Source: a virus
IMG/VR virus record: IMGVR_UViG_3300005747_001530
Location: 1 to 26,449 of that record
Length of the DNA: 26,449 bases
Reading direction: 5' to 3' (one strand)
Shown here one piece after another: positions 2,284 through 19,610 of this stretch. The notes beneath the pieces are model-generated. The model was not told where the DNA came from. It saw only the letters and a program-made list of their open reading frames with translations, and searched no databases. The stretch's first letter is position 1, and every line of letters starts with the position of its first letter. Made by a program: the position numbers and the translations under genes.

Positions 2284-2862
2284 ATGAACAGATCGATCAT
2301 CGTCCTTGCAGTCGACCCGGGCTTGACCGGGGCGGCGGTGGGGCTGTCTGACTCGCCGCGACTGCTCGCATGTCGCGCCGCCCATGGCACGGGCGGGTAC
2401 TACTCAGGCGTGCCGTCCGGCCGTCTGCCGTTCCGCGCAGCCGCCGACGTTCTGCACAGCCTGCGCGACGAGCTCGCGCGCGGCGGTGCTGCCCCGTCAG
2501 AGGTCTGGTTCGTCGTCGAAGAGGCGGGCAAGTGGGCAACGGGTCGCGAAGGCGCGTCGAGGCTCGCGAAGGTGGTAGCTGACGTCACCACCTGGCGGAA
2601 CGCTGCGCAGCTCGTCGCCGACCATGTCGTCGTGTGGAGTGCACAGCGCACCGACCGCGCAGCCGGTCTTCGGCGCCGCACCAGAGGCCGAGCCGGGCGT
2701 AAAGCCGAGGTCAGGCGGTTCAATCTGCAGAACGTCGAGCGTGGCGACCTGCCGCCGTTCCGCGAGATCCCGCCCGGGTGCAGCGTTCCTTCTGACGGCC
2801 TGCACGACGCCGTGCACATGGCTCGCGGGCTGTTGCGGGTCGCAAAAGGGGGGATGCTATGA
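2284..2862 (+). CDS. RuvC-like Holliday junction resolvase (RNase H fold)
   Basis: A 192-residue protein with GGAGG just upstream of the ATG. The N-terminal strand IVLAVDPGLTGAAVG carries the first catalytic Asp (Asp11). VWFVVEEAG supplies Glu79/Glu80, and DGLHDAVHMARG near the C-terminus supplies Asp171 and Asp175. This D...E...D/D arrangement is that of RuvC-type resolvases, which cut branched DNA as dimers with divalent metal. Phages use them to clear recombination and replication branches before packaging. The HDA sequence with an upstream Asp is typical of phage/RuvC-like members. A basic stretch at residues 127-145 could contact DNA. The stop overlaps the next ATG. Confidence 0.85.
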   Translation: MNRSIIVLAVDPGLTGAAVGLSDSPRLLACRAAHGTGGYYSGVPSGRLPFRAAADVLHSLRDELARGGAAPSEVWFVVEEAGKWATGREGASRLAKVVADVTTWRNAAQLVADHVVVWSAQRTDRAAGLRRRTRGRAGRKAEVRRFNLQNVERGDLPPFREIPPGCSVPSDGLHDAVHMARGLLRVAKGGML

Positions 2863-3113
2863 CGAGCGCCGCAAAGTGGAGACAGATCCGACGGCTGCGC
2901 GCGCTGCTGCAGTTCGGCGTGTACGGCGTGCAGCGGCTCGCGATGTCCGCCCACTACCGCCCATCGCGCCGCGAAACCATCGCGCACCGCTTCGGCTTCG
3001 GCATTGACTACGGGACCGAGCCGCCGACGCCGACAGTCCTGCGCATGCTGAGCGAATCCGACGCGCGGTCGGTCTTCTACTTTGCCAACCGGCCTCCGCT
3101 GGTGATTCCATGA
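2859..3113 (+). CDS. Unknown 84-aa basic protein
   Basis: Small gene held between the resolvase and the helicase by ATGA overlaps at both ends (2859-2862 and 3110-3113), which strongly supports translation. The protein is Arg-rich in its N-terminal half (KWRQIRRLRALLQFGVYGVQ) and ends in FYFANRPPLVIP. No known motif or membrane segment is apparent. It may be a small DNA-binding or helicase-accessory protein, but only the genomic context supports this. Confidence 0.75.
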   Translation: MTSAAKWRQIRRLRALLQFGVYGVQRLAMSAHYRPSRRETIAHRFGFGIDYGTEPPTPTVLRMLSESDARSVFYFANRPPLVIP

Positions 3114-5077
3114 TCCCAATGCCGCCAGGCCAGTCGCCGCGGCGCTGGCAAGTCGAGGCCACAAACGCCGTTCGCGCGCTCGTGCGGCAAGGCTTTCGCT
3201 CGATGGTCGTCGAGTCGGCCACGGGCACGGGGAAAGGGTCGTGGATCGCCGGATTCGCCGTCAAGTGCGCCCGGGCCGGCTGGCGTGTGATGATCCGCGT
3301 GCACCGGAAGGAGCTCGTCGAAGATCTCGCCGACCGCATCGGCCAGATCTTCGACGACGTCGGCGTCGTTCAAGGGCCGCGAAACCAGATTCTCGCCCGC
3401 GTCGTCGTGGCGTCTGTCCCATCGCTGCAGTCGCGGCTCGACGGCCTGCCGCCCTTCGACCTGGTGATCACCGACGAGTGCCACCATGCCACGGCGCCGA
3501 CGTACGTGCGGAGCCTCGAAGCCGTCGAAGAGGCGCTGCAGGCGGCGAAGGGGAAGTCGGCGCGGCTGCTGCACATCGGCTGCACCGCTACGGGCTTTCG
3601 GTCCGATGGCAACGGCGGCACGGTCGGGATCGGCTCGGCGTTTCAGCTGCTCGCCTACAGCTACGGCATCGTCGAAGCCATCGCCGACGGCGTGCTCGTG
3701 CCGCCGCGGGCGCTGAAGATCGAGACGCATCTGTCTGTCGCCGGCGTCAAGGTCACGCGGTCGGGCGACTACGACGAGTCCGAGCTCGCCGCGGCGGTCG
3801 ACACACCGGAGCGAAATCGGCTGATCGCGCTGAAGTACCTTGAGCACGCGCCAGACCGCCAGGCGCTCGCCTTCGCCGTCGACGTGCGGCACGCGCAGAA
3901 CATGGCCGCCGTCTTTCGCGAGCATGGCGTCGACGCGCATGCAGTTTGGGGCGACATGCCGCCCGTCGCGCGCGAGCGACTGATCGACGGCTACACGCGC
4001 GGCGACGTCCAGATGCTCGTCAGCCGCGACCTTCTCTTCGAGGGTTTCAACGCGCCGCGCTGCTCGTGCCTACTGCGCGCTCGCCCTACCCGATCGATGG
4101 TCATCGCGGTGCAGATGGTCGGGCGTGGCCTGCGGCTTTGCCCGACCATCGGCAAGACTGACTGCCTGGTGCTCGACTTTGCCGACGACGGCGTCGAGCT
4201 GCAGCTCGACGTCGAAGCGAACATGACCGACCCGACGGGCCCGCTCGCGACGCGGCAGGCTCGCCCCTTCGAGGTCGGCGACCTGGTGCAGCACCGGGTC
4301 GAATCGCTCGGTACGGGCGTCGTGCTGGCCGTCGACGGGCTGCGCACAGATGTACGCTGGCCGAAGCATGGCGAACGGGTGCACGGCCGCCCCGAGCTGC
4401 GGCTCGCGACAGAAGACGAGGCCGAAGAGGTCGCCGTTGACCTGCAGGTGGCCGGCGTGACCGAATACTCGCTCGAGCTGTTGCCGGGCGACCGGCCAGA
4501 TCGCGCGGTCGGATGGTACCGCGACGGATCGATCTGGTCTGCAGCGGCGAAGGCGCCGAACGAGATCAATCTCGTGTGCATCGTTCGCCAGCTCGCCGAC
4601 GGCAGTTGGTCGGCGTGGGGCGCCCACCTGCCGCGGCGCGGCCAGCCACGGGCCCGCAAGATCTTCACGACGCGCGACCTGCTGCAGGCGCGAACGACCG
4701 GGCGGTCGTGGATCATGCAGCAGGGTGGTCGCGTGACCGACTGGACCGCCGCCTGGCGTGGCAAGCCAGCGACCGAAGCGCAGCTGCGCTTGCTCCGCTC
4801 GCTGCGGGTCGCCCGCGACCTTCGAGACATGACCCAAGGCGAAGCCGGCTGTCTGATCTCCTCGTTGCGCGCTCGGCAGGCCATCAGAGCCGAGATCCGG
4901 GCCAGTCGGTCGAGCCGGTACGACCCGACGCCGTCGCCCGCCATGGTGGCCGGGCTGCAGGCCATCGCCCGCGGCGAGCTCGCCGCGGTGCGTAAACCCA
5001 CACTGGCCGGTCTGCGACGCCGCGGGTTGCTTCGCGGCGAAGAGCTGACGGACGCTGGCCGAGCACTTCTTCGATGA
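3110..5077 (+). CDS. SF2 DEAD/DEAH-box-type helicase with C-terminal extensions, 655 aa
   Basis: ATP-dependent superfamily 2 helicase of the type III restriction/UvrB-like group. Motif I is ATGTGKG (37-43), motif II DECHH (122-126), motif III TATGFR (159-164), an SRDLLFEGFNAP stretch (305-316) corresponds to motif V, and QMVGRGLR (335-342) is motif VI with arginine finger. The helicase core ends near residue 370. Beyond it, 386-430 has a GDLVQH...GTGVVLAV...V pattern like small SH3/Tudor-type domains (DUF3553-like). About 551-586 has a TEAQL...L...MTQGEAGCLI motif seen in several phage and bacterial DNA-processing proteins. The last 45 residues resemble a winged helix ending LTDAGRALL. It probably unwinds or translocates on DNA during phage replication/recombination. 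It starts in an ATGA overlap. Confidence 0.92.
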   Translation: MIPMPPGQSPRRWQVEATNAVRALVRQGFRSMVVESATGTGKGSWIAGFAVKCARAGWRVMIRVHRKELVEDLADRIGQIFDDVGVVQGPRNQILARVVVASVPSLQSRLDGLPPFDLVITDECHHATAPTYVRSLEAVEEALQAAKGKSARLLHIGCTATGFRSDGNGGTVGIGSAFQLLAYSYGIVEAIADGVLVPPRALKIETHLSVAGVKVTRSGDYDESELAAAVDTPERNRLIALKYLEHAPDRQALAFAVDVRHAQNMAAVFREHGVDAHAVWGDMPPVARERLIDGYTRGDVQMLVSRDLLFEGFNAPRCSCLLRARPTRSMVIAVQMVGRGLRLCPTIGKTDCLVLDFADDGVELQLDVEANMTDPTGPLATRQARPFEVGDLVQHRVESLGTGVVLAVDGLRTDVRWPKHGERVHGRPELRLATEDEAEEVAVDLQVAGVTEYSLELLPGDRPDRAVGWYRDGSIWSAAAKAPNEINLVCIVRQLADGSWSAWGAHLPRRGQPRARKIFTTRDLLQARTTGRSWIMQQGGRVTDWTAAWRGKPATEAQLRLLRSLRVARDLRDMTQGEAGCLISSLRARQAIRAEIRASRSSRYDPTPSPAMVAGLQAIARGELAAVRKPTLAGLRRRGLLRGEELTDAGRALLR

Positions 5078-10387: not shown

Positions 10388-10687
10388 TCACTTGCTGTTG
10401 AGCCACGCCGACTGCACGCCGGTGGCGGCGTCGCGGTAGCTCACGAGTGCCTTGACGTCGCCGATCGGGACCGACACATTCGCGACGCTGGTGGTCATGC
10501 CGGTGGTTTCGATGCCGGCGGCGCTGATCACATTGCAGCCGGCTCCAAGCGCCTTGACCCGCACGCGACAGTCGGACACGGGAGCCGGAAGCGTGAGGGT
10601 CACGCCAGCGTCGAGCGCGACGACGTCATCGTCGCGGAGCCAGGCGATCGGGGCGGTGCGGTCAGCGGTCACGTGCACGGTACGCAT
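10388..10687 (-). CDS. Small beta-rich tail protein, 99 aa
   Basis: ATG at 10687 with GAGGT six bases upstream. It overlaps the end of the frameshifted chaperone frame by 26 bases. The sequence pattern VTLTLPAPV..CRVRVKALG, N, then GIETTG and ALVSYRD...SAWLN matches the repeat often found in phage tail spikes and fibres, where a hydrophobic sheet is followed by a glycine turn and a terminal W. It is probably a small beta-helix or beta-sandwich tail protein. Whether it is a free subunit or a fibre base is unknown. Confidence 0.75.
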   Translation of the reverse strand: MRTVHVTADRTAPIAWLRDDDVVALDAGVTLTLPAPVSDCRVRVKALGAGCNVISAAGIETTGMTTSVANVSVPIGDVKALVSYRDAATGVQSAWLNSK

Positions 10688-11203
10688 TTCGATACCTCAT
10701 CATGGCGGTCTGGCGGCGTCGAACGGTTTCCCGGTCGTCGCCCTTCAGGTGAATGTCCGCGACCATGTCGCGGTGCGCGAACGCCGCAAGCAAGAACGAC
10801 TGCTGCGACGGTGTGAGCGTGTAGATGTGGAGTGGATCGCCCGTCGCTCGCCAGCCCTCGACGATCAGCTCGGCGAGGGCACCCGAGGGTTTCGGCCGTC
10901 CTGCTCGACCAGCGCCGCCGCAGCGTCGGACCGGTCGACCTGCAGCGCTTGCTCGACGAGCGACCACCAGGCGCGCAGCGCCGCGAGGTCGGGGTCGACG
11001 CCAGCGTCGGCGAGCTCGCACGCACGGCGGCGACCGTACTCGACGAGCTGGTCGACGTTGCCAGGCGAGAGCCGGGGCACACCGTCGACGCCGTGCACGA
11101 TGTCGTGCAAGACGGCCGACTGCGGCAGATTCTCGAGCTGTTTAAGGGTGTCGAGGCCGAAAAAGCCAATTCGGATCTCGGAGGGTTGGAGCGTTGTGGC
11201 CAT
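10662..11203 (-). CDS. Tail assembly chaperone, long form made by -1 frameshift (gpGT-like), 180 aa
   Basis: The first frame (11203 to 10865) can shift -1 at A AAC CCT (plus 10886-10892). Translation then continues as SGALAELIVEGWRATGDPLH to TGA at 10664-10662, adding 74 residues to the first 106. The open -1 frame has high GC at third positions and no start of its own that makes sense. Lambda gpG/gpGT and equivalents in most long-tailed phages use such a shift; the long form recruits tail tube subunits and both forms chaperone the tape measure. Identification rests on the shift signal, its size and its position right after the probable tail tube gene, not on sequence similarity. Confidence 0.78.
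10854..10892 (-). promoter_or_regulatory. Programmed -1 frameshift signal
   Basis: On the minus strand the heptamer A AAC CCT (plus 10886-10892) fits X XXY YYZ in the zero frame; after slippage the codons are AAA CCC. Five bases later a perfect 7-bp hairpin GCCCTCG/CGAGGGC (plus 10874-10880 with 10854-10860, 13-base loop) would stall ribosomes. The zero-frame stop follows six codons after the heptamer. Spacer, stem and frame relation match known tail-chaperone signals, though AAACCCT is less slippery than AAAAAAG-type sites. Confidence 0.8.
10865..11203 (-). CDS. Tail assembly chaperone, short form (gpG-like), 112 aa
   Basis: Two in-frame ATGs occur at 11209 and 11203. AGGAGG lies seven bases before the second and too close to the first, so 11203 is chosen. 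The protein begins MATTLQPSEIRIGFFGLDTL, is mostly helical (NVDQLVEYGRRRACELADAG, ALRAWWSLVEQAL) and ends six codons after a slippery heptamer. Size, helical content, the overlapping -1 frame and the preceding tube gene fit the short tail assembly chaperone, made in excess over the fusion. It is unusual in lying downstream, not upstream, of the tape measure gene. Confidence 0.8.
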   Translation of the reverse strand: MATTLQPSEIRIGFFGLDTLKQLENLPQSAVLHDIVHGVDGVPRLSPGNVDQLVEYGRRRACELADAGVDPDLAALRAWWSLVEQALQVDRSDAAAALVEQDGRNPRVPSPS

Positions 11204-11239: not shown

Positions 11240-11770
11240 CTACGGGACGGCGTTCTTCGTGGGGCGCGGTGCGCTGGTGCTGCGGAACGTCAGCGAGTAG
11301 ACCGTCGGCTGCCCTTCGGTCTTCGGAGCGGCGACGAGCAGCGCGTCGGGCACTTCGTAGTAGATGTCTGCGCTGGCCGGGGCAGGCACGCCAGCCGAAA
11401 GCGTCGGGTTCGGGTACCACTGCACATGCAGCGGACGGTGGCCGTCGCGGCGCGTGATGGTGGGCGCCCAAGACGCGGCGGTGATGGCTGCCGACGTGCC
11501 GCCGCGCATCCATTCCGCCAGGCTCGGCAGGTTCACACCGTCGACTACTTCGTCGCTGGCCACCATCGCGGTAAACGTCACCTCTGCGGGCGTCTCGTCC
11601 GTTAGGCGCACCCCAGACCCGTCCGTGATGATCTTGCCGCGGTGCAGGTAGGTGATCGTCTCGGCGAGATCTTCGACGTTGCCGTCGCCAGCGACGGGAT
11701 GGTGGTCGTAGACTCGGGTGCCGTCGGTTATCCGCAGCAGTCCGTCGGTACGGTCGAGAACGTCGGGCAT
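11240..11770 (-). CDS. Probable major tail tube protein, 176 aa
   Basis: ATG at 11770 with GGAGG nine bases upstream, four bases after the previous stop. The protein begins MPDVLDRTDGLLRITDGTRV, and its strands then follow the order common in siphophage tube proteins: LxITDGT, a short acidic loop, TYLHRGKIITDGSGVRLTDE, EVTFTAMVA, a mid-helix NLPSLAEWMRG, and a final ADIYYEVPDAL...YSLTFRSTS. Such subunits form hexameric rings stacked around the tape measure. The next gene is the frameshifted chaperone pair, the usual neighbour of the tube. Assignment is by pattern and context. It lies after the tail-tip genes, which is not the usual place. Confidence 0.7.
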   Translation of the reverse strand: MPDVLDRTDGLLRITDGTRVYDHHPVAGDGNVEDLAETITYLHRGKIITDGSGVRLTDETPAEVTFTAMVASDEVVDGVNLPSLAEWMRGGTSAAITAASWAPTITRRDGHRPLHVQWYPNPTLSAGVPAPASADIYYEVPDALLVAAPKTEGQPTVYSLTFRSTSAPRPTKNAVP

Positions 11771-11774
11771 GGTG

Positions 11775-13379
11775 TCAGTCCTCCGGGCCTTGCTGCGCCC
11801 ACTTGCGCACGTCGACGGCCATGGTGTCGGCCCCACTGTACCGCACGGCGACCACTTCGGCCACGGTGTCGACGGTCGGGTCGACATCGACCACCCGCAC
11901 CAGCACACCGGGGCGCAGCCGCTCGTCTTCGCTGCAGGCCAGCGTCGTCGACCACTGCGGCCTGCAGCGCACCTGCACAGCCATGCGCGCGATCAGCTGC
12001 GCGGTCGCGTCGTCGCACACAATCGGCGCCTGCAGCTCGACCTCGCGCTCGCCCACAGCCGCCAGCGCTCGCCGTGCCCAGTAGTCGAGACCGACCTCGC
12101 TCGGGTCGTCGGTGGGGCGGCGCTGCCCGCAGACGGTGTAGCGCCGGACCATGTTTCCGCCGCGGGCGTCGAGGCCGTACGCGACCGTGACCCGTGACGT
12201 CATGTCGATGTCTTCTTGCACCCACGGCGCGACGCGCTCGGCGTTCACTCCGACGCGCAGCTCGATCTCGGCGTCGGCCCGAGACACGGCGGGCAGCCAC
12301 GGCCAGACATACAGACCGTCCGGGCCCGTCGCCACCGACACGGGCAGCAGCGCCAGCAGCTCGGAGCGCAGCCACGCCGATGGCCGCGCCTGCCCGGTCA
12401 GCACGGTGTCGACCATCAGCGACGAAAGCGCGCCGAGCCGGGGCAGCTCACGTCGAGCGATCCGCAGCGTCGATCGGTCCAGCGCGTAGCGGATCACATG
12501 GTCGAAGCGGCGCAGCAGCCCGCGCCCGTACGGGTTCGGTGCACCGCCGCCGTCCGCTTCGGAGTAGGCGAGCCAATGCTCGGCGTCGACGTCGACGGAC
12601 GTGGCGGGCTGCACCAGCGAGACGAGACGGCCGGCCATGTCGTGACCCGTCTGCACCGCCAGGCGCTCGCCGTACGATGTGACCGATCCGGCGACGCTCA
12701 GATGCCGCAGGTGTGTCGCTTCGATGGTGCCGACCGCGACGAGGATGGCACTATCGGCCGCAGGTGCACCGGCGTTTTCGACCAGGAGGCCGGGCGAGCT
12801 GATCGCGCTGTCGCCGTAGACCGTGCCGGCAGCAATGACGCCCTGGATTCCAGGCACGCCGAGCGGGAGCGGGTACGCCGCTCCCTCGATCCGCGCGTCG
12901 AAGGCTACCGGGCCGGTCGTGTAGGACGGCCAGCCGTCGAGCACACGCTGCGCGTCCGAGCGTGGGAACGTCGACGGCCCGACGACGGCCAGCGGGTCGA
13001 GCAGCAGCCCGCGATCGTCGAGCGCATCTTCGACCACTACCGCCGACCACCAGTGCGACTCTGCGGCCACGCTCCGAAGGTCGCCTCGCGCCACGACCGT
13101 GCGGTCGGCGTAGTCGCTCAAGCTCGACTCGAGCCGGGCCACCTCCGCCGTTCCTTCGACCGACAGGCCACCGGGCCGCAGGACCGTGATCGGCATTTGC
13201 CGCGGCGTCAGCGAGTCGGACAGCCACGACATCGACTCAGCGAGCGCAGCTTCGTCGACGTCGAGGCCGGGCACAAACCGCAGCGTTTCGCCGGTCTCCC
13301 GGTCGGTCAGCGTGACCGCGGGCCCATCGGTCAGTAGAAGGTCGCCCGTCGGCGTCCAGATTCGGCACAGCACGCGCAT
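11775..13379 (-). CDS. Tail tip / hub-like protein, 534 aa
   Basis: ATG at 13379 with AGGAGG eight bases upstream. The N-terminal 45 residues (LCRIWTPTGDLLLTDG.AVTL) resemble the start of baseplate hub or tail-associated proteins. A middle beta-rich part (about 120-260) is followed by a C-terminal half with YVWPWLP, ELRVGVNAERVAPWV, DMTSRVTVAYGLD and LRPGVLVRVVDVDP, similar in layout to hub proteins (gp27/gpJ-N-like), where small barrels close the tail tube. There is no lytic domain. It follows the distal-tail protein gene with a three-base gap, so the two probably assemble together. A specific family cannot be assigned by eye. Confidence 0.7.
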   Translation of the reverse strand: MRVLCRIWTPTGDLLLTDGPAVTLTDRETGETLRFVPGLDVDEAALAESMSWLSDSLTPRQMPITVLRPGGLSVEGTAEVARLESSLSDYADRTVVARGDLRSVAAESHWWSAVVVEDALDDRGLLLDPLAVVGPSTFPRSDAQRVLDGWPSYTTGPVAFDARIEGAAYPLPLGVPGIQGVIAAGTVYGDSAISSPGLLVENAGAPAADSAILVAVGTIEATHLRHLSVAGSVTSYGERLAVQTGHDMAGRLVSLVQPATSVDVDAEHWLAYSEADGGGAPNPYGRGLLRRFDHVIRYALDRSTLRIARRELPRLGALSSLMVDTVLTGQARPSAWLRSELLALLPVSVATGPDGLYVWPWLPAVSRADAEIELRVGVNAERVAPWVQEDIDMTSRVTVAYGLDARGGNMVRRYTVCGQRRPTDDPSEVGLDYWARRALAAVGEREVELQAPIVCDDATAQLIARMAVQVRCRPQWSTTLACSEDERLRPGVLVRVVDVDPTVDTVAEVVAVRYSGADTMAVDVRKWAQQGPED

Positions 13380-13382
13380 CGC

Positions 13383-16300
13383 TCAAACCTCCTCGACGTG
13401 GTCGAGCCAGCCGCGCTGCACCGCGTCGACCACTTCGTCGCCGTCGACGTCGACGATCTCGGGCTCGCCCATCAGGCGCCCCAAGATGGCGAGCTCGCGC
13501 CCGGGTAGCTGCACCTCTTCGACCGCGACCGCGTCGGGGTCGTGTGCGATGCGCGGCAGCAGCACGACTTGCCCGTCGCCGCCTCCGATCAGCGCGGTCA
13601 GCGTCTCGACCGGCGAGAGGTCGCCGACCATGGCGATCGGCACGCCCCCGGCCATCTGGTAGCTCGGGTCATCGCCCCACTCTGTCGGGAACCCTTCCGA
13701 CCACGACACGCGCGTCGCCCGCAGCATCTCGCCACGGCGACGGGCGGCGATGTAGCCGGGCGTCTCTTCGAGGTCGACCTGCGGCACCAGCGTCGTCGAC
13801 CGGCCTCGACTCCACCGCTGGCCGAGCACCAGCACGGGCCCGACCACCAGACGGCCCGTCCGGTAGTACCCTTCGACGGTCGTCTCGGGCGCGATTCGCC
13901 ACCGGTAGTATTTGTGGGCGGTCGTGTAGCCGAGCGCCACGACCGCCCCACATGGGCGCCAGATGTCCAGCGTACCGGTTGCCGTGCCCGCGGGAGCACC
14001 TTCGACACGAACGACGACAGACGCCGAGCCAGACCGCCACGGGCCGGCCTGCACGACGTCGACGACGCGGTACCGAGCCGCACCGTCGGCGATGGTCCCC
14101 CCGATGATCTCCCGAGGCCGGATGACAGCAGCCGTCGCGCCCGCGGCGACGCGGTAGGTGTCGCCGTCGCGACTGTACGACAGACCGGTCAGGCCGTCGG
14201 CGGTGTCGAGCTCGGCGATGTCGACCCAGGTGGCGCCATCGCCGCCCTGCAGCTTCGCTTGCCGATAGTTGGCCCGGAACACCGCAGCACCCGGGGCGCT
14301 GCCTCCGAAGGAATGCTCGACGGCGCCCGAGTCGACCGGGGCGAAGGCGTACCACTGTGCGACGCCGTCGGCTGTGGTCTGGTGCTCCTCTTGCGGGCTG
14401 CGCGAGAGAAGATTGTCAGCTCGCTGGAGGTAGTCGGTCGGGATCCGCCAGTAGTCGCCGCGGGCACCAGGACCGCCGCGCGCCTGCAGGAACGCTTCGG
14501 CCTCGACGTGCAGCCGGTTCGGGCGGGCGGGCAGCCATCCACCGGGCAGCGTGTCGGGCGCTTGCGAGATCGCCAGACCGGCCGCCAGGCTGTCGGTCGT
14601 GGCGGTGTGCGACCCGTAGCCGTCGCCGACTGCGACGTGCACGCCGTACCAGGTCGACGAGTACGCGCCGCCCACGTTGCCCCAATGAACGAACGACGTG
14701 CCAGCGCCGACCGTGCGGCGCGAGGCCACGCCGGACACGCGCAGCGTCCACATTTCGCCGTTCGCCTCTCGGCTGTACAGCGCGACTGTGTTGCCGGCGC
14801 CTGAGTACGTCAGCGCGAGACGGTAGACCCTCCGCACGGTGCAGTCGATGGCCACGGCGGCGCCGACAATGCCGCCGCCGTTCGTGTCGTAGACCGCCAG
14901 CTCGCCATTCGCGAGCCGCACTTCGACGCGCAGATCTTCCGCGCCGTTGCCGACGCCCACTTTGAGCCCTACGCCCTGCACAGTCGTGTTTGCCGGCGTA
15001 GCGCTGGTGTCGGCCTCGAAGTGCACCACGATGCCGGTCTGTGCGCTGTGCGAGCCAAACGTGCGTTGGTACTCGCCCGTAGCGGACGACCACGACAAAG
15101 CGAAAGCGCCCGTCGTCGAGATCGAGCCGGCCGCCCCTACGCCGGTCCAGCCGTACGAAGACGGGCTCGCCAGCGGGATCCACGTCACCGAGTCGAGGCC
15201 GGTCGCCGAGCCACCGAATGCCCGCAGCTCGAAGGGGTGACCCGACGAGACTCGAGACATGGGCGCCATCGTCCAGCCACCCGACTCGACGAGCGCGAGC
15301 CACTGGTCGGGCCGGGCGCCCGTGGCCGTTTCCTGCAGCGTCCACAGCACGCGCGAGCCGAGCGGAATCGCGCGGAAGCGGTCAACGCCAGCACCGGGCA
15401 AGCGCGTCAGCGCCGTCTCGAAGGCGCTCCAAGTCACGCCGCCGTCGAAAGACCGCGCCACCTGCACCCGGTCGCCAGCGCTCCAGGCGACGTACAGATG
15501 CCCTACGGTGTCGCACCAGATGCTCACATCGTCGGCCACGCTGCCCGACAGCGACACCAGGTCGATCGCGTCGGCGCTGCGCAGCGGCAGGTACGGTGAG
15601 GCTGTGCGGCGCACCTGCAGCGTCAGCGAGCCACCGGGTAGCCCTTCGATGTAGGCGGCGACGAAGACGCCGTCGGGTGTCGCGGTCACGTCGGGGCGCC
15701 GCACGTACGGCTGCCCCGTGGCCCACGGGTTCCAGTCCTCGACGAGCTCGAAACTGTGCCCCATGTCGCTCGATGCGTACTGGACCCACCCCCGCCGTGC
15801 GGTCTGTTCATCCGTCCACGATGACCCGACGAGCAGCAGCACCAGCTCGTGTGAATGGTGCCACGAGATCGAATCATAGGTCGCGCCCGCGGGCAGCTCG
15901 ACGTCGTAGCCGGCCAGCGTCAGCGACCGCCAGGTCAGCGCGTCGTCGTCGGAGTAGTGCACGACAAGGTCGACGCCGCCCCCAGGGCCGAGCACCAGCG
16001 CCGCCGCCAGGAGGCGACCGGTCGGCAGCCGCAGCACGTCGACAGGGTGGCCGCTGGTGTAGGCGGCCGGCTCGGGCTGCGCTCCGTCGGCGTCCATCGG
16101 CAGCGAGTGGTCGGCGACGACGACGGCAGGCGCGACCCAGTCGTGCGACGTCGAGTCGTAGCGCCGTGCCGAGATCACGCCGCTGTTGTTCCAGACGACG
16201 ACGGCTTCGCCGTTCTGCAGGTCGACGCCTGCCCAGTTGTGCGGCCCGTCGACCCCGCGGTCGAGCGACGCCTCGCTCGTCTGCTGCAGCACTTGGTCGG

Positions 16301-16640
16301 TGGAGCGCCCGAACCACTGCAGGCCGGCGTCGCCCATCTGGCGGCGCACGGCGACCTCGCACCCGCTGCCCGGCATGCCCGCCCGCGTAACCATGATCTC
16401 CAGGTCGGAGGACTGTTCGCCGACGACTCGAGGCGACAGCGACGGGCCGAGATCGCCGGCCGTCGAGCTGCTGCGCCCGATGCTCCCGCGCTGGTACTCG
16501 GCGACGCCGGGCACGGGCATGGCTTGCGTGAAGCTGCTGTCGGTGACGCCGACGCCGACCGGCTGCAGGGTGGCGGCGCTGATCAGCTGCGCGGGCAGCA
16601 GCAAGCCGGCGAGCGCGCGGTCGAGATCTTCGCGGGGCAT
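13383..16640 (-). CDS. Large tail-tip protein with Asp-box (sialidase-like) propeller, 1085 aa
   Basis: ATG at 16640 shares one base with the tape measure stop (TGATG). Residues about 130-460 contain three Asp boxes of the S-x-D-x-G-x-(T)-W/F type: SDDDALTW (230-237), SSDMGHSF (290-297) and SFDGGVTW (397-404). They are separated by strand-rich repeats, as in BNR/sialidase six-bladed propellers. A beta-sandwich-like part with VVHFEADTS and RVEVRLANGELAVYDTNGG follows (about 490-690), possibly a concanavalin-type sugar-binding domain. The C-terminal 160 residues (RVSWSEGFPTEWGDDPSY...) look like a tail-tip attachment part, and position after the tape measure fits a distal-tail protein. Glycan binding or cleavage is plausible, but catalytic residues were not identified. 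Confidence 0.75.
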   Translation of the reverse strand: MPREDLDRALAGLLLPAQLISAATLQPVGVGVTDSSFTQAMPVPGVAEYQRGSIGRSSSTAGDLGPSLSPRVVGEQSSDLEIMVTRAGMPGSGCEVAVRRQMGDAGLQWFGRSTDQVLQQTSEASLDRGVDGPHNWAGVDLQNGEAVVVWNNSGVISARRYDSTSHDWVAPAVVVADHSLPMDADGAQPEPAAYTSGHPVDVLRLPTGRLLAAALVLGPGGGVDLVVHYSDDDALTWRSLTLAGYDVELPAGATYDSISWHHSHELVLLLVGSSWTDEQTARRGWVQYASSDMGHSFELVEDWNPWATGQPYVRRPDVTATPDGVFVAAYIEGLPGGSLTLQVRRTASPYLPLRSADAIDLVSLSGSVADDVSIWCDTVGHLYVAWSAGDRVQVARSFDGGVTWSAFETALTRLPGAGVDRFRAIPLGSRVLWTLQETATGARPDQWLALVESGGWTMAPMSRVSSGHPFELRAFGGSATGLDSVTWIPLASPSSYGWTGVGAAGSISTTGAFALSWSSATGEYQRTFGSHSAQTGIVVHFEADTSATPANTTVQGVGLKVGVGNGAEDLRVEVRLANGELAVYDTNGGGIVGAAVAIDCTVRRVYRLALTYSGAGNTVALYSREANGEMWTLRVSGVASRRTVGAGTSFVHWGNVGGAYSSTWYGVHVAVGDGYGSHTATTDSLAAGLAISQAPDTLPGGWLPARPNRLHVEAEAFLQARGGPGARGDYWRIPTDYLQRADNLLSRSPQEEHQTTADGVAQWYAFAPVDSGAVEHSFGGSAPGAAVFRANYRQAKLQGGDGATWVDIAELDTADGLTGLSYSRDGDTYRVAAGATAAVIRPREIIGGTIADGAARYRVVDVVQAGPWRSGSASVVVRVEGAPAGTATGTLDIWRPCGAVVALGYTTAHKYYRWRIAPETTVEGYYRTGRLVVGPVLVLGQRWSRGRSTTLVPQVDLEETPGYIAARRRGEMLRATRVSWSEGFPTEWGDDPSYQMAGGVPIAMVGDLSPVETLTALIGGGDGQVVLLPRIAHDPDAVAVEEVQLPGRELAILGRLMGEPEIVDVDGDEVVDAVQRGWLDHVEEV

Positions 16641-18724
16641 CAGTACACTCTCTTTCGGGCGGTGCTGTTGCGGCCGACGCCGGTGCGGTCGACTGCACGC
16701 TGTGTAGCCACTGCGATGCCGAGCCGCAGCGGTCCGTCTCGCACGTCGAGCACCGTCTGCACCATCTGCGGGCCACCACGACCGCCGCCGAGCTGCTGCC
16801 GCAGGCCAGCGTCGTCGCGAGCGGCCACGACGCGGTCGCCGGCCGCGAAGGTCATGCGCTCACCTGGGCGCGCTGTCACTACGCCGGGCGTGTCCGAGAA
16901 ACGCCGGCCGCGACGACCTCCACCACGATCGCGGTCGCGGTCGAGCCCAAGAGCACCGCGCACAGCGTTTCGGATCAGTCTGAACACGGTGCGCCAGTAT
17001 GCCTGCAGCCCCTTAACGATGCCGGTCACGATCCCGACTGCGATGTCGTCGGCCGACTTGATTAGCTCGACGACGATTTTCGGCACAGCCTTCGCGATCG
17101 CGACGATGATGTCGGGCAGCGCGTCGGCGAGCGCTCGCACGAATGGGCCGATGTTTTTGGCCAGCGACTCGACAAAGGCGACGGCGTCTTTCGCCATCTG
17201 CTTTCCGGCGCTGGCGCCACCGGTCGCCGCTTCGAGCAGCTGCGCCGGGCTGGCCAGCGCCGACAACGCGCCACCGGTCAACGTGCCGATCAGGCTTGCC
17301 GCTTTGCTGCCCGCCTCTCGAGCTGTCTCGAGCAGCGAGCCTGCCCAGATCCGCCCCCATGGAATCGCGTCGAAGCTGGCCTTCACCTGCGCGCCCATGT
17401 CCTGCAGTGCCATGTCGGCTACGGCTGTCGTCTCTTCGAGCGCCGTCTGCAGCGGCTGCAGCGCCCGGGCGCCCGCTGTCTGGATCGATTCGATTCGGGT
17501 CGCCAGCGCCGCCAGCGCGCCCGACAGCTGGTCGACCTGCGCTTCGGTGAGCTCGGCAGCAGCAGCGGACGCGACGAGGCCGGCCTGCAGCCGTTGCAGC
17601 TGCGCGAGCTCGGAACGGTCTACGAACGGCTGCCGAGCTGCTTCGAGCGCCTTTGTGTAGTCGCGCAGCGCGCGCTCGGCGGCTTTCGCTGCCTCTGCGG
17701 CTGCCTTGTCGGCGCCGTTGTCGCGCTTGCGCTGCGACTTGTTCTTCTTGCCCTCCTCTTCGCGCAGCTTGGCGATCGTGCCGACCAGCTTCTTGGCGGC
17801 GGCGTCGTAGTCGCGCGTAGCAGCCTCGACACCCTCGAAGGCCAGCTCGACGACTTCGAGCGGCAGGTCGCGAAGTCCGGTTCTGATGTCTTCGAGGCCG
17901 TCGGCCAGCCCGTCGAGGCCGGTCGCGCGTGCGATCTTCTCGGTGATCGACGCCATGTCGAGCAGCAGGCCGAGCGACGGCGCGAGCGCTGTCACGACCG
18001 CCGAGCCCAGCTGCGCGAAGACCGACCCGACCGCTTCGGCGCCGCTGCCCATGGTGTCGAGCGCGTCGCCGGCCATCAGTCCGAGCTTGACCACCAGAAT
18101 GGCGACCCGCTCGACGGTAGGCGCTACCCGGTCGGCGAGCTGCACGACGAGATCCTTGCTCACTGCGACGACGCCGTCGAGTGCATCGTTTGCCGCCGTG
18201 ATGCGGGCCACGGTCGCCGGTGCGATTCCGAGCGCTGCCTGCATCGGCTCAAGCTCGGCGACGAGCTCGCCCGCGGTGCGTGTGAGGCTCACCAGCGCTT
18301 TGCCTGCGCCGAGCACTCCGACGACGAGGCCACCGACCGCCAGCGCGGCACCAGTGGCCGCGACCGTGATCTGTCCGAGCGGCGACGACAAGCCAGCCAG
18401 CACCGCCCGCGCTTTGTCGAAGCGGTCGGCCGACACTCCGGCGAGCTCGGCCAGACCCTTCGCCGCCTCGCGCGCTTCGGTCGCCTGGCGTTCAGCCTCT
18501 CGCGCAGCAGCTCGTGCGGCCCGCTCGGCTGCCTTCTGCGCCTTCGCATTCTCGCGGGCGTCTTGTCGGATCGCCTTCGAAACGCCCTTCGACGCCTTGA
18601 TCGCCAGCCGCTGAATCTCGCGAATCGCCTTGTCGGCTTCCTTGCCGGCGAGGTCGGGCAGATCTTTCAGCGAATCCATCAGCGACGACAGGTCGGCGCC
18701 GATCCCGATCAGTGCGTCAGCCAC
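16640..18724 (-). CDS. Tape measure protein, 694 aa
   Basis: Starts at GTG (18724-18722) with GAGGTG upstream, overlapping the previous gene by eight bases. Residues 1-110 are long charged helices (AKAQKAAERAARAAAREAER). A hydrophobic stretch follows at about 120-148 (GAALAVGGLVVGVLGAGKAL) and others occur near 200-260. More helical coiled-coil follows at about 300-370, then membrane-prone helices near 520-590 (DIIVAIAKAVPKIVVELIK) and a basic Gly/Arg-rich C-terminus. This mix of helix and membrane segments in a long late gene next to the neck genes is typical of tape measures, which set tail length and help DNA entry. By the usual 0.15 nm per residue the tail would be about 100 nm. Confidence 0.88.
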   Translation of the reverse strand: MADALIGIGADLSSLMDSLKDLPDLAGKEADKAIREIQRLAIKASKGVSKAIRQDARENAKAQKAAERAARAAAREAERQATEAREAAKGLAELAGVSADRFDKARAVLAGLSSPLGQITVAATGAALAVGGLVVGVLGAGKALVSLTRTAGELVAELEPMQAALGIAPATVARITAANDALDGVVAVSKDLVVQLADRVAPTVERVAILVVKLGLMAGDALDTMGSGAEAVGSVFAQLGSAVVTALAPSLGLLLDMASITEKIARATGLDGLADGLEDIRTGLRDLPLEVVELAFEGVEAATRDYDAAAKKLVGTIAKLREEEGKKNKSQRKRDNGADKAAAEAAKAAERALRDYTKALEAARQPFVDRSELAQLQRLQAGLVASAAAAELTEAQVDQLSGALAALATRIESIQTAGARALQPLQTALEETTAVADMALQDMGAQVKASFDAIPWGRIWAGSLLETAREAGSKAASLIGTLTGGALSALASPAQLLEAATGGASAGKQMAKDAVAFVESLAKNIGPFVRALADALPDIIVAIAKAVPKIVVELIKSADDIAVGIVTGIVKGLQAYWRTVFRLIRNAVRGALGLDRDRDRGGGRRGRRFSDTPGVVTARPGERMTFAAGDRVVAARDDAGLRQQLGGGRGGPQMVQTVLDVRDGPLRLGIAVATQRAVDRTGVGRNSTARKRVY

Positions 18725-19133
18725 GCTTCACCTCTTCGAGTCCAGCCTCGACGATCTCTTCGGCCATCGGGCCGCGAGCCTCGCGTGTCGGCTTTCCGAG
18801 CTCGTCGGTGTAGAAGTAGCGCGCCCGGGTCGCCCGTGCTGTTGTACCGACCTTCGAGGACAGCACGAACCGCGCGTACCGGGCTGCCGGGCCCTGCACG
18901 CCGACCACTCGCCGCACCTGCGTCGGCGGGCCAGCGACCGGCCGCTCGACGAGGCCGTCGCGCAGCTTGCCCGTCAGCACGGGCGCGCGGGCCTGCGCGT
19001 TTGTCGCGATCCGACCGGTCGTCGCTCGCACGATGCGCTCGGTGCGCAGTCGAATCCGGTCGAAGAGCTCGAGCGGCTGGTCGAGCACGCCCGACAGCGA
19101 TCGCTCGCCGCCCGGGACTTTCTTCTTCGCCAC
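18717..19133 (-). CDS. HK97 gp10-like head-tail / tail completion protein, 138 aa
   Basis: Starts at GTG (19133-19131) with GGAGG upstream. Residues about 46-58 read AQARAPVLTGKLRDGL, the signature of the HK97 gp10 family (ARxPVxTGxLRxS). It is followed by a strand region (VRRVVGVQGPAARYARFVL) and a helical C-terminus. Family members sit at the neck or tail terminator and complete head-tail joining. It lies between another neck gene and the tape measure, which agrees. Its end overlaps the start of the tape measure gene, so expression is coupled. Confidence 0.85.
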   Translation of the reverse strand: MAKKKVPGGERSLSGVLDQPLELFDRIRLRTERIVRATTGRIATNAQARAPVLTGKLRDGLVERPVAGPPTQVRRVVGVQGPAARYARFVLSSKVGTTARATRARYFYTDELGKPTREARGPMAEEIVEAGLEEVKRG

Positions 19134-19142
19134 GCTGCCTCC

Positions 19143-19610
19143 TCACGCCGGCAGCGTAGTCGGCGCTCGCGTCGGAATCGTTGCGTCAATGGTACTCGCC
19201 CAGAACTCGCCGGTCCACACCGTCGAAGCCAGTACCGACGTGGTCGGTACCGTCTCGCCCGCGCCGTCGACGAGGCGAGCGAAGCGCCCGCAGATCTGGC
19301 GCCGCGTGTTCAGGTGGCCCTCGTAGGCGGCGGTCAGGCCGGCGGCGACGCGCCGCGTGTAGAACTGCACCCGGACGGTGTAGGTGCATGCGTTGCTCGT
19401 CGCGACCTCGCGCTGCCGCCGGCCGTCCTGCACCGTCTCGCTCGACACCGGGATGCCAACGTACACTCGCCCGCTCGCGACCTGGTCGGGCTGCACAATG
19501 CCGTCGGGCGGCGGCAGGCTCGACACCGCGGCGGCGCTGCCGAGCTCGTCGCGCAGCTGGTCGAGCACGACCGCCCGCAGCTGCACTTCGGTGTAGGACC
19601 GGCGCGACAT
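19143..19610 (-). CDS. Probable tail terminator / head-closure protein, 155 aa
   Basis: ATG (19610-19608) shares one base with the stop of the preceding gene (TGATG). The protein begins MSRRSYTEVQLRAVVLDQLR, with a first helix, then a strand-loop stretch with GRVYVGIPVSS, a long strand TYTVRVQFYTRRVAAG and a helix HLNTRRQICGRFARLV. The helix-strand-strand-helix-strand order and size match tail terminator/gpU-like or minor tail completion proteins, and its neighbours are neck proteins. The exact neck role (terminator or stopper) is not certain. Confidence 0.65.
   Translation of the reverse strand: MSRRSYTEVQLRAVVLDQLRDELGSAAAVSSLPPPDGIVQPDQVASGRVYVGIPVSSETVQDGRRQREVATSNACTYTVRVQFYTRRVAAGLTAAYEGHLNTRRQICGRFARLVDGAGETVPTTSVLASTVWTGEFWASTIDATIPTRAPTTLPA

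Follow-up and report, generated by a model that had tools for sequence, protein, structure and literature searches.

A likely tail assembly chaperone gene downstream of the tape measure gene in a viral contig, with −1 frameshifting very likely at a Y_CCU site

A −1 slip before a hairpin, serving tail building, is known and frequent in phages. The locus described here raises the question of whether two overlapping frames on the minus strand, between positions 11203 and 10662, are joined in this way, and whether their product is a tail assembly chaperone. What is unusual is that the gene lies on the other side of the tape measure gene, and that its slippery site is looser than in the textbook cases.

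The window, by which we mean the whole stretch of DNA analysed, is one virus record of 26,449 bases, the late genes of which were named from library matches and inspection of their translations. On the minus strand they run in the order terminase, portal, scaffold, major capsid, three connector-region genes, an HK97-gp10-like neck gene (18717-19133) and the tape measure gene (694 aa; 16640-18724), followed by a 1085-aa tail protein with BNR-like repeats (13383-16640), a 534-aa tail protein (11775-13379), a 176-aa protein and the frameshift gene. The tape measure assignment is made because homologues of this protein in two related contigs, L066 and L058, match Pfam PhageMin_Tail above the cut-off, TMP_2 at the cut-off, and PHROG tape measure families. 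The 1085-aa protein is kept in relatives; it matches Pfam BNR_2 (BNR/Asp-box) weakly (E 0.001, below the cut-off), and a beta-propeller in the tail is possible. The 534-aa gene, which fills the stretch from the tape measure block to the tube gene, is kept in all relatives, and its L066 homologue shows a weak Phage-tail_3 match.

The zero frame begins with ATG at 11203 and ends with TGA at 10867-10865, encoding 112 aa, the presumptive G-like short form (10865-11203). Initiation at another in-frame ATG, that of 11209, would lengthen the protein to 114 aa; the spacing of AGGAGG favours 11203. The candidate slip site, A_AAC_CCT, stands in phase at 10892-10886 (CCT at 10888-10886), and six sense codons separate CCT from TGA. 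After the slip a T-like −1 reading of 74 codons (10662-10886) begins SGALAELIVEGW and continues to RARDR and a stop at 10662. These frames and the in-phase heptamer, which lie on the minus strand, are otherwise as the original prediction described them. Compared with the related contig G001, the window has a dN of 0.38 and a dS of 1.00 in the zero frame up to the slip; past the zero-frame stop the −1 frame has 0.18 and 0.59; judged by these rates, both frames are under purifying, protein-level selection. The 5,830 predicted-gene codons of the window contain 12 in-phase XXXYYYZ heptamers, of which solely A_AAC_CCT lies within 50 codons of a stop. From the window alone the signal is suggestive, not decisive; comparison with relatives places it far beyond chance.

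Ten contigs were analysed, the window and nine related viral contigs. G001 and G002 were reached through a search with the capsid protein; they are 99.96% identical to each other over their shared tail end and about 75-78% identical to the window in DNA. The two frames of these contigs led to L013/G003, a 40 kb contig in which the tape measure gene spans the contig ends. An alignment of terminases yielded G005 and G007, and the 534-aa protein yielded L057, L060, L061, L064, L065, L058 and L066. A peptide pattern overlapping the hairpin served as the route to L013 only; since the remaining relatives were found through unrelated genes, conservation in them did not arise from the way they were found. 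Near relatives are grouped in G001/G002, G005/L057 and L061/L064/L065, so that the ten contigs count as about six lineages. Against phage records the gene gave no DNA match and protein matches at chance level, and the short form alone gave no match among viral contigs. The prokaryote genome collection gave no match with either the A2 alignment or the terminase, and no host could therefore be named. Homologues of the terminase in named phages were tried as a guide to the tail and set aside; the structural genes of those phages look podovirus-like and the similarity is confined to the terminase.

In all ten contigs a homologous zero-frame ORF ends in TGA exactly six codons past CCT, in keeping with the stop position first proposed from the window. 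Y_CCU, a 5-nt spacer, the hairpin and an open −1 frame are conserved together with it in every one. Homologues with a disrupted −1 frame, which were to count against the original prediction, were looked for: no relative that has retained the gene shows such a break, and in the ten contigs the frame stays open for 64 to 74 codons past the site. Since stop distance, spacer, compensated hairpin and −1 frame are all kept, programmed −1 frameshifting at the overlap is very likely, and the conservation supports the proposed fusion of the two frames with a hairpin as the probable stimulator. Two adjacent frames of one gene may also look like the product of an indel error, in sequencing or in a pseudogene. 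The relatives refute this explanation, to which we give practically no weight: the break falls at the identical codon in ten contigs from different samples, and both frames are selected.

The main alternative to a fusion would express the −1 frame as a separate protein, through termination and reinitiation at the CUGA overlap with CUG as the start. The −1 codon overlapping TGA is indeed CTG in all ten contigs, and in L058 the stop of a 135-aa ORF overlaps a GTG in the continuation frame (GTGA) at the aligned position; the continuation in that contig may be made by reinitiation, not frameshifting. CUG, however, is a very poor bacterial start. TTG would encode the same Leu and be usable, yet ATG, GTG or TTG occurs at the overlap in none of the ten; it is because CTG, which is no usable start, invariably occupies the overlap that reinitiation is disfavoured. 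Nor was a Shine-Dalgarno-like sequence found ahead of the CUGA overlap. Reinitiation would furthermore leave unexplained the constant Y_CCU, the 5-nt spacer and the conserved PSxAL of the −1 frame, although the hairpin could partly constrain these, and we consider it very improbable. As to starts elsewhere, the −1 frames of G003, L057, L064 and G001 have no ATG, GTG or TTG ahead of the slip, and beyond it the first 20-62 codons are free of them as well. In G005, L060, G007 and L061 start codons stand in the −1 frame 16 to 35 codons ahead of the slip, and the extension contains none. Across the whole set, a frameshift fusion would be the simplest route of expression for the −1 frame.

How the ribosome would slip is a separate matter. 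The original prediction set out from a lambda-type slippery heptamer; that this is the essential signal is not supported by the relatives, most of which lack XXXYYYZ and keep Y_CCU only. The heptamers of the ten contigs are AAACCCT, AAATCCT, GGTCCCT, CGTCCCT, GGACCCT, CATCCCT and TATCCCT. The codon preceding CCT is variously AAC, AAT, GTC, GAC or ATC, and alignment of these seven distinct sites leaves nothing in common other than CCT and the pyrimidine before it. A single tRNA-Pro slip from CCU to CCC (UCC in G005 and L057) would be possible in all contigs, while tandem slippage of two tRNAs would be possible in the window clade and not in most other relatives. Tandem slippage at a canonical XXXYYYZ, as in lambda G/GT, with the relatives having diverged to other sites, is a rather unlikely explanation. 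The window, G001 and G002 carry A_AAC_CCT, and at the A_AAU_CCU of G005 and L057 the tRNA-Asn in the P site could restore two of its three pairs on AAA; but GTC, GAC or ATC before CCT re-pairs poorly in G003, G007, L060, L061, L064 and L065, where the rest of the signal is kept. Since Y_CCU is conserved and the heptamer is not, a single tRNA-Pro slip combined with the hairpin fits better than tandem slippage.

Nearly all −1 frameshifting has been described as needing Z_ZZN as its minimum (PMC5009743). C_CCU is of this form, which we count in favour of the single-tRNA slip, and like known sites of this class it has a stem-loop a few nucleotides downstream. It differs from them in that the codon is one for proline, that two relatives have U_CCU, and that the stimulator carries the zero-frame stop in its loop. 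In those two relatives, G005 and L057, the −1 codon UCC requires a first-position G.U pair, and this is counted against the single-tRNA slip. In the PRFect survey, which has frameshift motifs other than XXXYYYZ in phage chaperone genes, most annotated overlaps were without a three-three motif, and XXXYYYZ was not strictly required (PMC10885494); the motifs of that survey were inferred from annotation, whereas the window motif was inferred by comparing divergent relatives. The window and G001 have AGGA ahead of the slip, but the other relatives do not keep it, and for this reason an internal Shine-Dalgarno stimulator is not claimed. Transcriptional slippage was rejected, there being no long homopolymer at the site.

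Between CCT and the candidate stimulatory hairpin (10854-10880, minus strand) lies the spacer (10881-10885; CGGGT in the window), which is five nucleotides long in all ten contigs. The hairpin had been predicted as a perfect 7-bp stem beginning five bases past the heptamer. Its position and the 7 bp were correct; the stem in fact has 11 positions, in which the 7 bp (GCCCTCG...CGAGGGC) are followed by one C.U mismatch and 3 bp, and it closes on a GCTGA pentaloop containing the zero-frame stop (10865-10867). In the window the 32 nt after the heptamer fold with an MFE of −16.7 kcal/mol (z −2.5); the z-scores for G003 and G007 are −3.4 and −4.6. Among 273 CCT sites on the minus strand, this stem, with 10 of 11 pairs at +5 from CCT, is the best. 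Standard pairs fill 94.8% of the base-pair cells over the seven distinct sites, as against 36-46% in controls with the partners shifted one to three columns. Compensatory cells occur at two stem pairs: position 9 varies by lineage between C-G, A-U and G-C, and position 8 between C-G, G-U and an unpaired C.U.

The covariation score is 0.212, compared with a shuffled mean of 0.091, and was reached in none of 500 shuffles, a result to be read with the caveat that related sequences can exceed shuffles without structure; two of five covariation measures were unremarkable, being reached by 207 and 110 of 500 shuffles. For some genome pairs the stem codons are more conserved than the 534-aa protein (window-G003, 8/8 vs 50%, p 0.004), while for pairs with G005 there is no such excess (p 0.13 to 0.23). 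A longer fold of 52 nt in the window has no excess stability (z −0.4), and so neither a pseudoknot nor a second stem is claimed. The conserved hairpin permits a direct test of single-tRNA against tandem slippage at the proline codon.

We thus propose that most ribosomes would read the zero frame and terminate at TGA, giving the 112-aa protein, and that a minority would slip back one base, with tRNA-Pro on CCU (Y_CCU to YCC), just before the 11-position hairpin. The slipped ribosomes would read on in the −1 frame, and their fusion product would measure about 180 aa. The short form would coat the tape measure protein, and the extra C-terminal domain of the fusion would recruit the tube protein, which is encoded just upstream. 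We infer the occurrence and rate of the frameshift, the single-tRNA mechanism at Y_CCU and the chaperone function. In lambda G/GT, which has counterparts in most long-tailed phages, likewise a short protein is accompanied by a −1 extended form, with the stop a few codons past the slip (PMC5009743). The shared N-terminal part and longer frameshifted product of that system would have their counterparts here, to judge from the conserved and selected dual-frame architecture. In contrast to lambda G/GT, the site in the present gene is Y_CCU without a conserved heptamer.

The identity of the protein rests on its neighbour. The 176-aa protein encoded directly upstream of the frameshift gene (11240-11770, minus strand) is predicted to be the major tail (tube) protein. 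An earlier fold from three sequences was too poor (pLDDT 44), and an AlphaFold2 model from 11 sequences, its own and ten relatives, was used instead (pLDDT 70.9, pTM 0.72). The top VIA-align rows for this model are mostly tail tube proteins and Hcp, the best being 8gtb (Z 9.7, rmsd 3.5, 114 residues); best Z values of 7 to 8 are common for unclear models, and the consistency of the rows therefore outweighs the value. Foldseek against the PDB likewise places mostly tail tube proteins and Hcp in its top rows, the best at E 2.8e-3 and none below 0.001, and the best BFVD row is a TP901-1-type major tail protein. A tail tube fold is thus predicted from the model.

Because the frameshift gene directly follows this predicted tube-fold protein, it is likely to encode the tail assembly chaperone. 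A place beside the tail tube gene, and low sequence similarity between phages, are shared with lambda G/GT (PMC5009743). The frameshift-gene protein has no convincing match in Pfam, PHROGs or PDB sequences, and an E 0.001 match of the chaperone to a designed protein covers 48 residues and was not accepted as homology. Since chaperones share little sequence between phages, the lack of a family match is weak evidence; together with the position of the gene, which is not upstream of the tape measure gene, it was nonetheless counted against a chaperone. The frameshift might then be real and serve another protein, such as a minor virion or accessory protein of two lengths, as the distance from the tape measure gene and the unmatched chaperone families would allow. 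We hold this to be improbable, as in the window and nine relatives the gene comes immediately after that for the tube, L066 has a similar two-frame gene about 0.5 kb past its tube-like gene, there is no space for a chaperone between the neck and tape measure genes, and L058 has a candidate tube-chaperone pair upstream of its tape measure gene and none downstream. Taken as a whole, a two-form tail assembly chaperone made by a −1 slip at Y_CCU before a hairpin is the reading that we strongly favour.

Many long-tailed phages have the chaperone gene ahead of the one for the tape measure (PMC3556154), and tail gene order has been described as conserved (PMC9022992). The comparison with lambda G/GT made by the original prediction is thus apt for the likely chaperone role beside a tube gene and inapt for gene order: in the window the tape measure gene lies about 5.4 kb upstream, and the frameshift gene, not being flanked by it and the major tail gene, stands downstream of it and of tail-tip-like genes, whereas the usual chaperone gene comes before the tape measure (PMC3556154). 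The same order as in the window is found in G001, G003, G005, G007, L057, L060, L061, L064, L065 and L066, where the genes for neck and tape measure are immediate or near neighbours. In the part of the literature covered, no chaperone gene was found described on the downstream side of the tape measure.

The exception is L058. Its tape measure protein is 46% identical to that of L060 over the full length, and it also shares proteins of 1090 and 542 aa, yet no tube-chaperone cassette follows the 542-aa gene. Upstream of its neck and tape measure genes it has instead a 161-aa protein and the 135-aa ORF with a −1 continuation, in a place where the window lacks a cassette of this kind. The L058 region in question, 2477-4164, also holds a 184-aa gene. 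The 135-aa ORF and its continuation are 36% and 58% identical to the window chaperone over short stretches, and hhalign gives a weak match between the L058 chaperone-like gene and the window chaperone (probability 46%, E 2e-4 for one comparison); it gives no support for homology of the 161-aa candidate tube protein to that of the window. The opposite placement supports the chaperone assignment and suggests that the tube-chaperone cassette has moved relative to the tape measure gene.

That there is a lineage of long-tailed phages with this cassette beyond the tape measure and tail-tip genes, using a single-tRNA slip at Y_CCU with the stop in the stimulator loop, appears to us somewhat more probable than its negation. 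If so, a strict order of genes in the tail module would not be needed for tail assembly, as L058 and L060 have similar tape measures with the pairs on opposite sides, the L058 pair being the less certain. These two contigs offer a natural comparison, with the chaperone gene on either side of similar tape measures. Chaperone frameshifts are usually sought just before the tape measure gene, often by XXXYYYZ; the present gene family escapes such searches, as it belongs to no known family, lies on the other side of the tape measure gene and mostly lacks the heptamer.

The two-frame gene of L066 (12680-13370), a more distant relative, has a chaperone-like architecture, a 163-aa ORF continuing in the −1 frame (LGIALHGDPRWIFTLEREHR...) after GAG_GGG_CCT, the candidate site in a gene without Y_CCU. 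A comparison by hhalign does not establish its kinship with the window gene (probability 1.5%).

Two further products of the window may be mentioned. The 155-aa connector-region protein (19143-19610) matches Pfam DUF6374 below the cut-off (E 6.5e-4), and on the plus strand a 655-aa ORF (3110-5077) reads as helicase-like from its TGTGKG and DECHH motifs.
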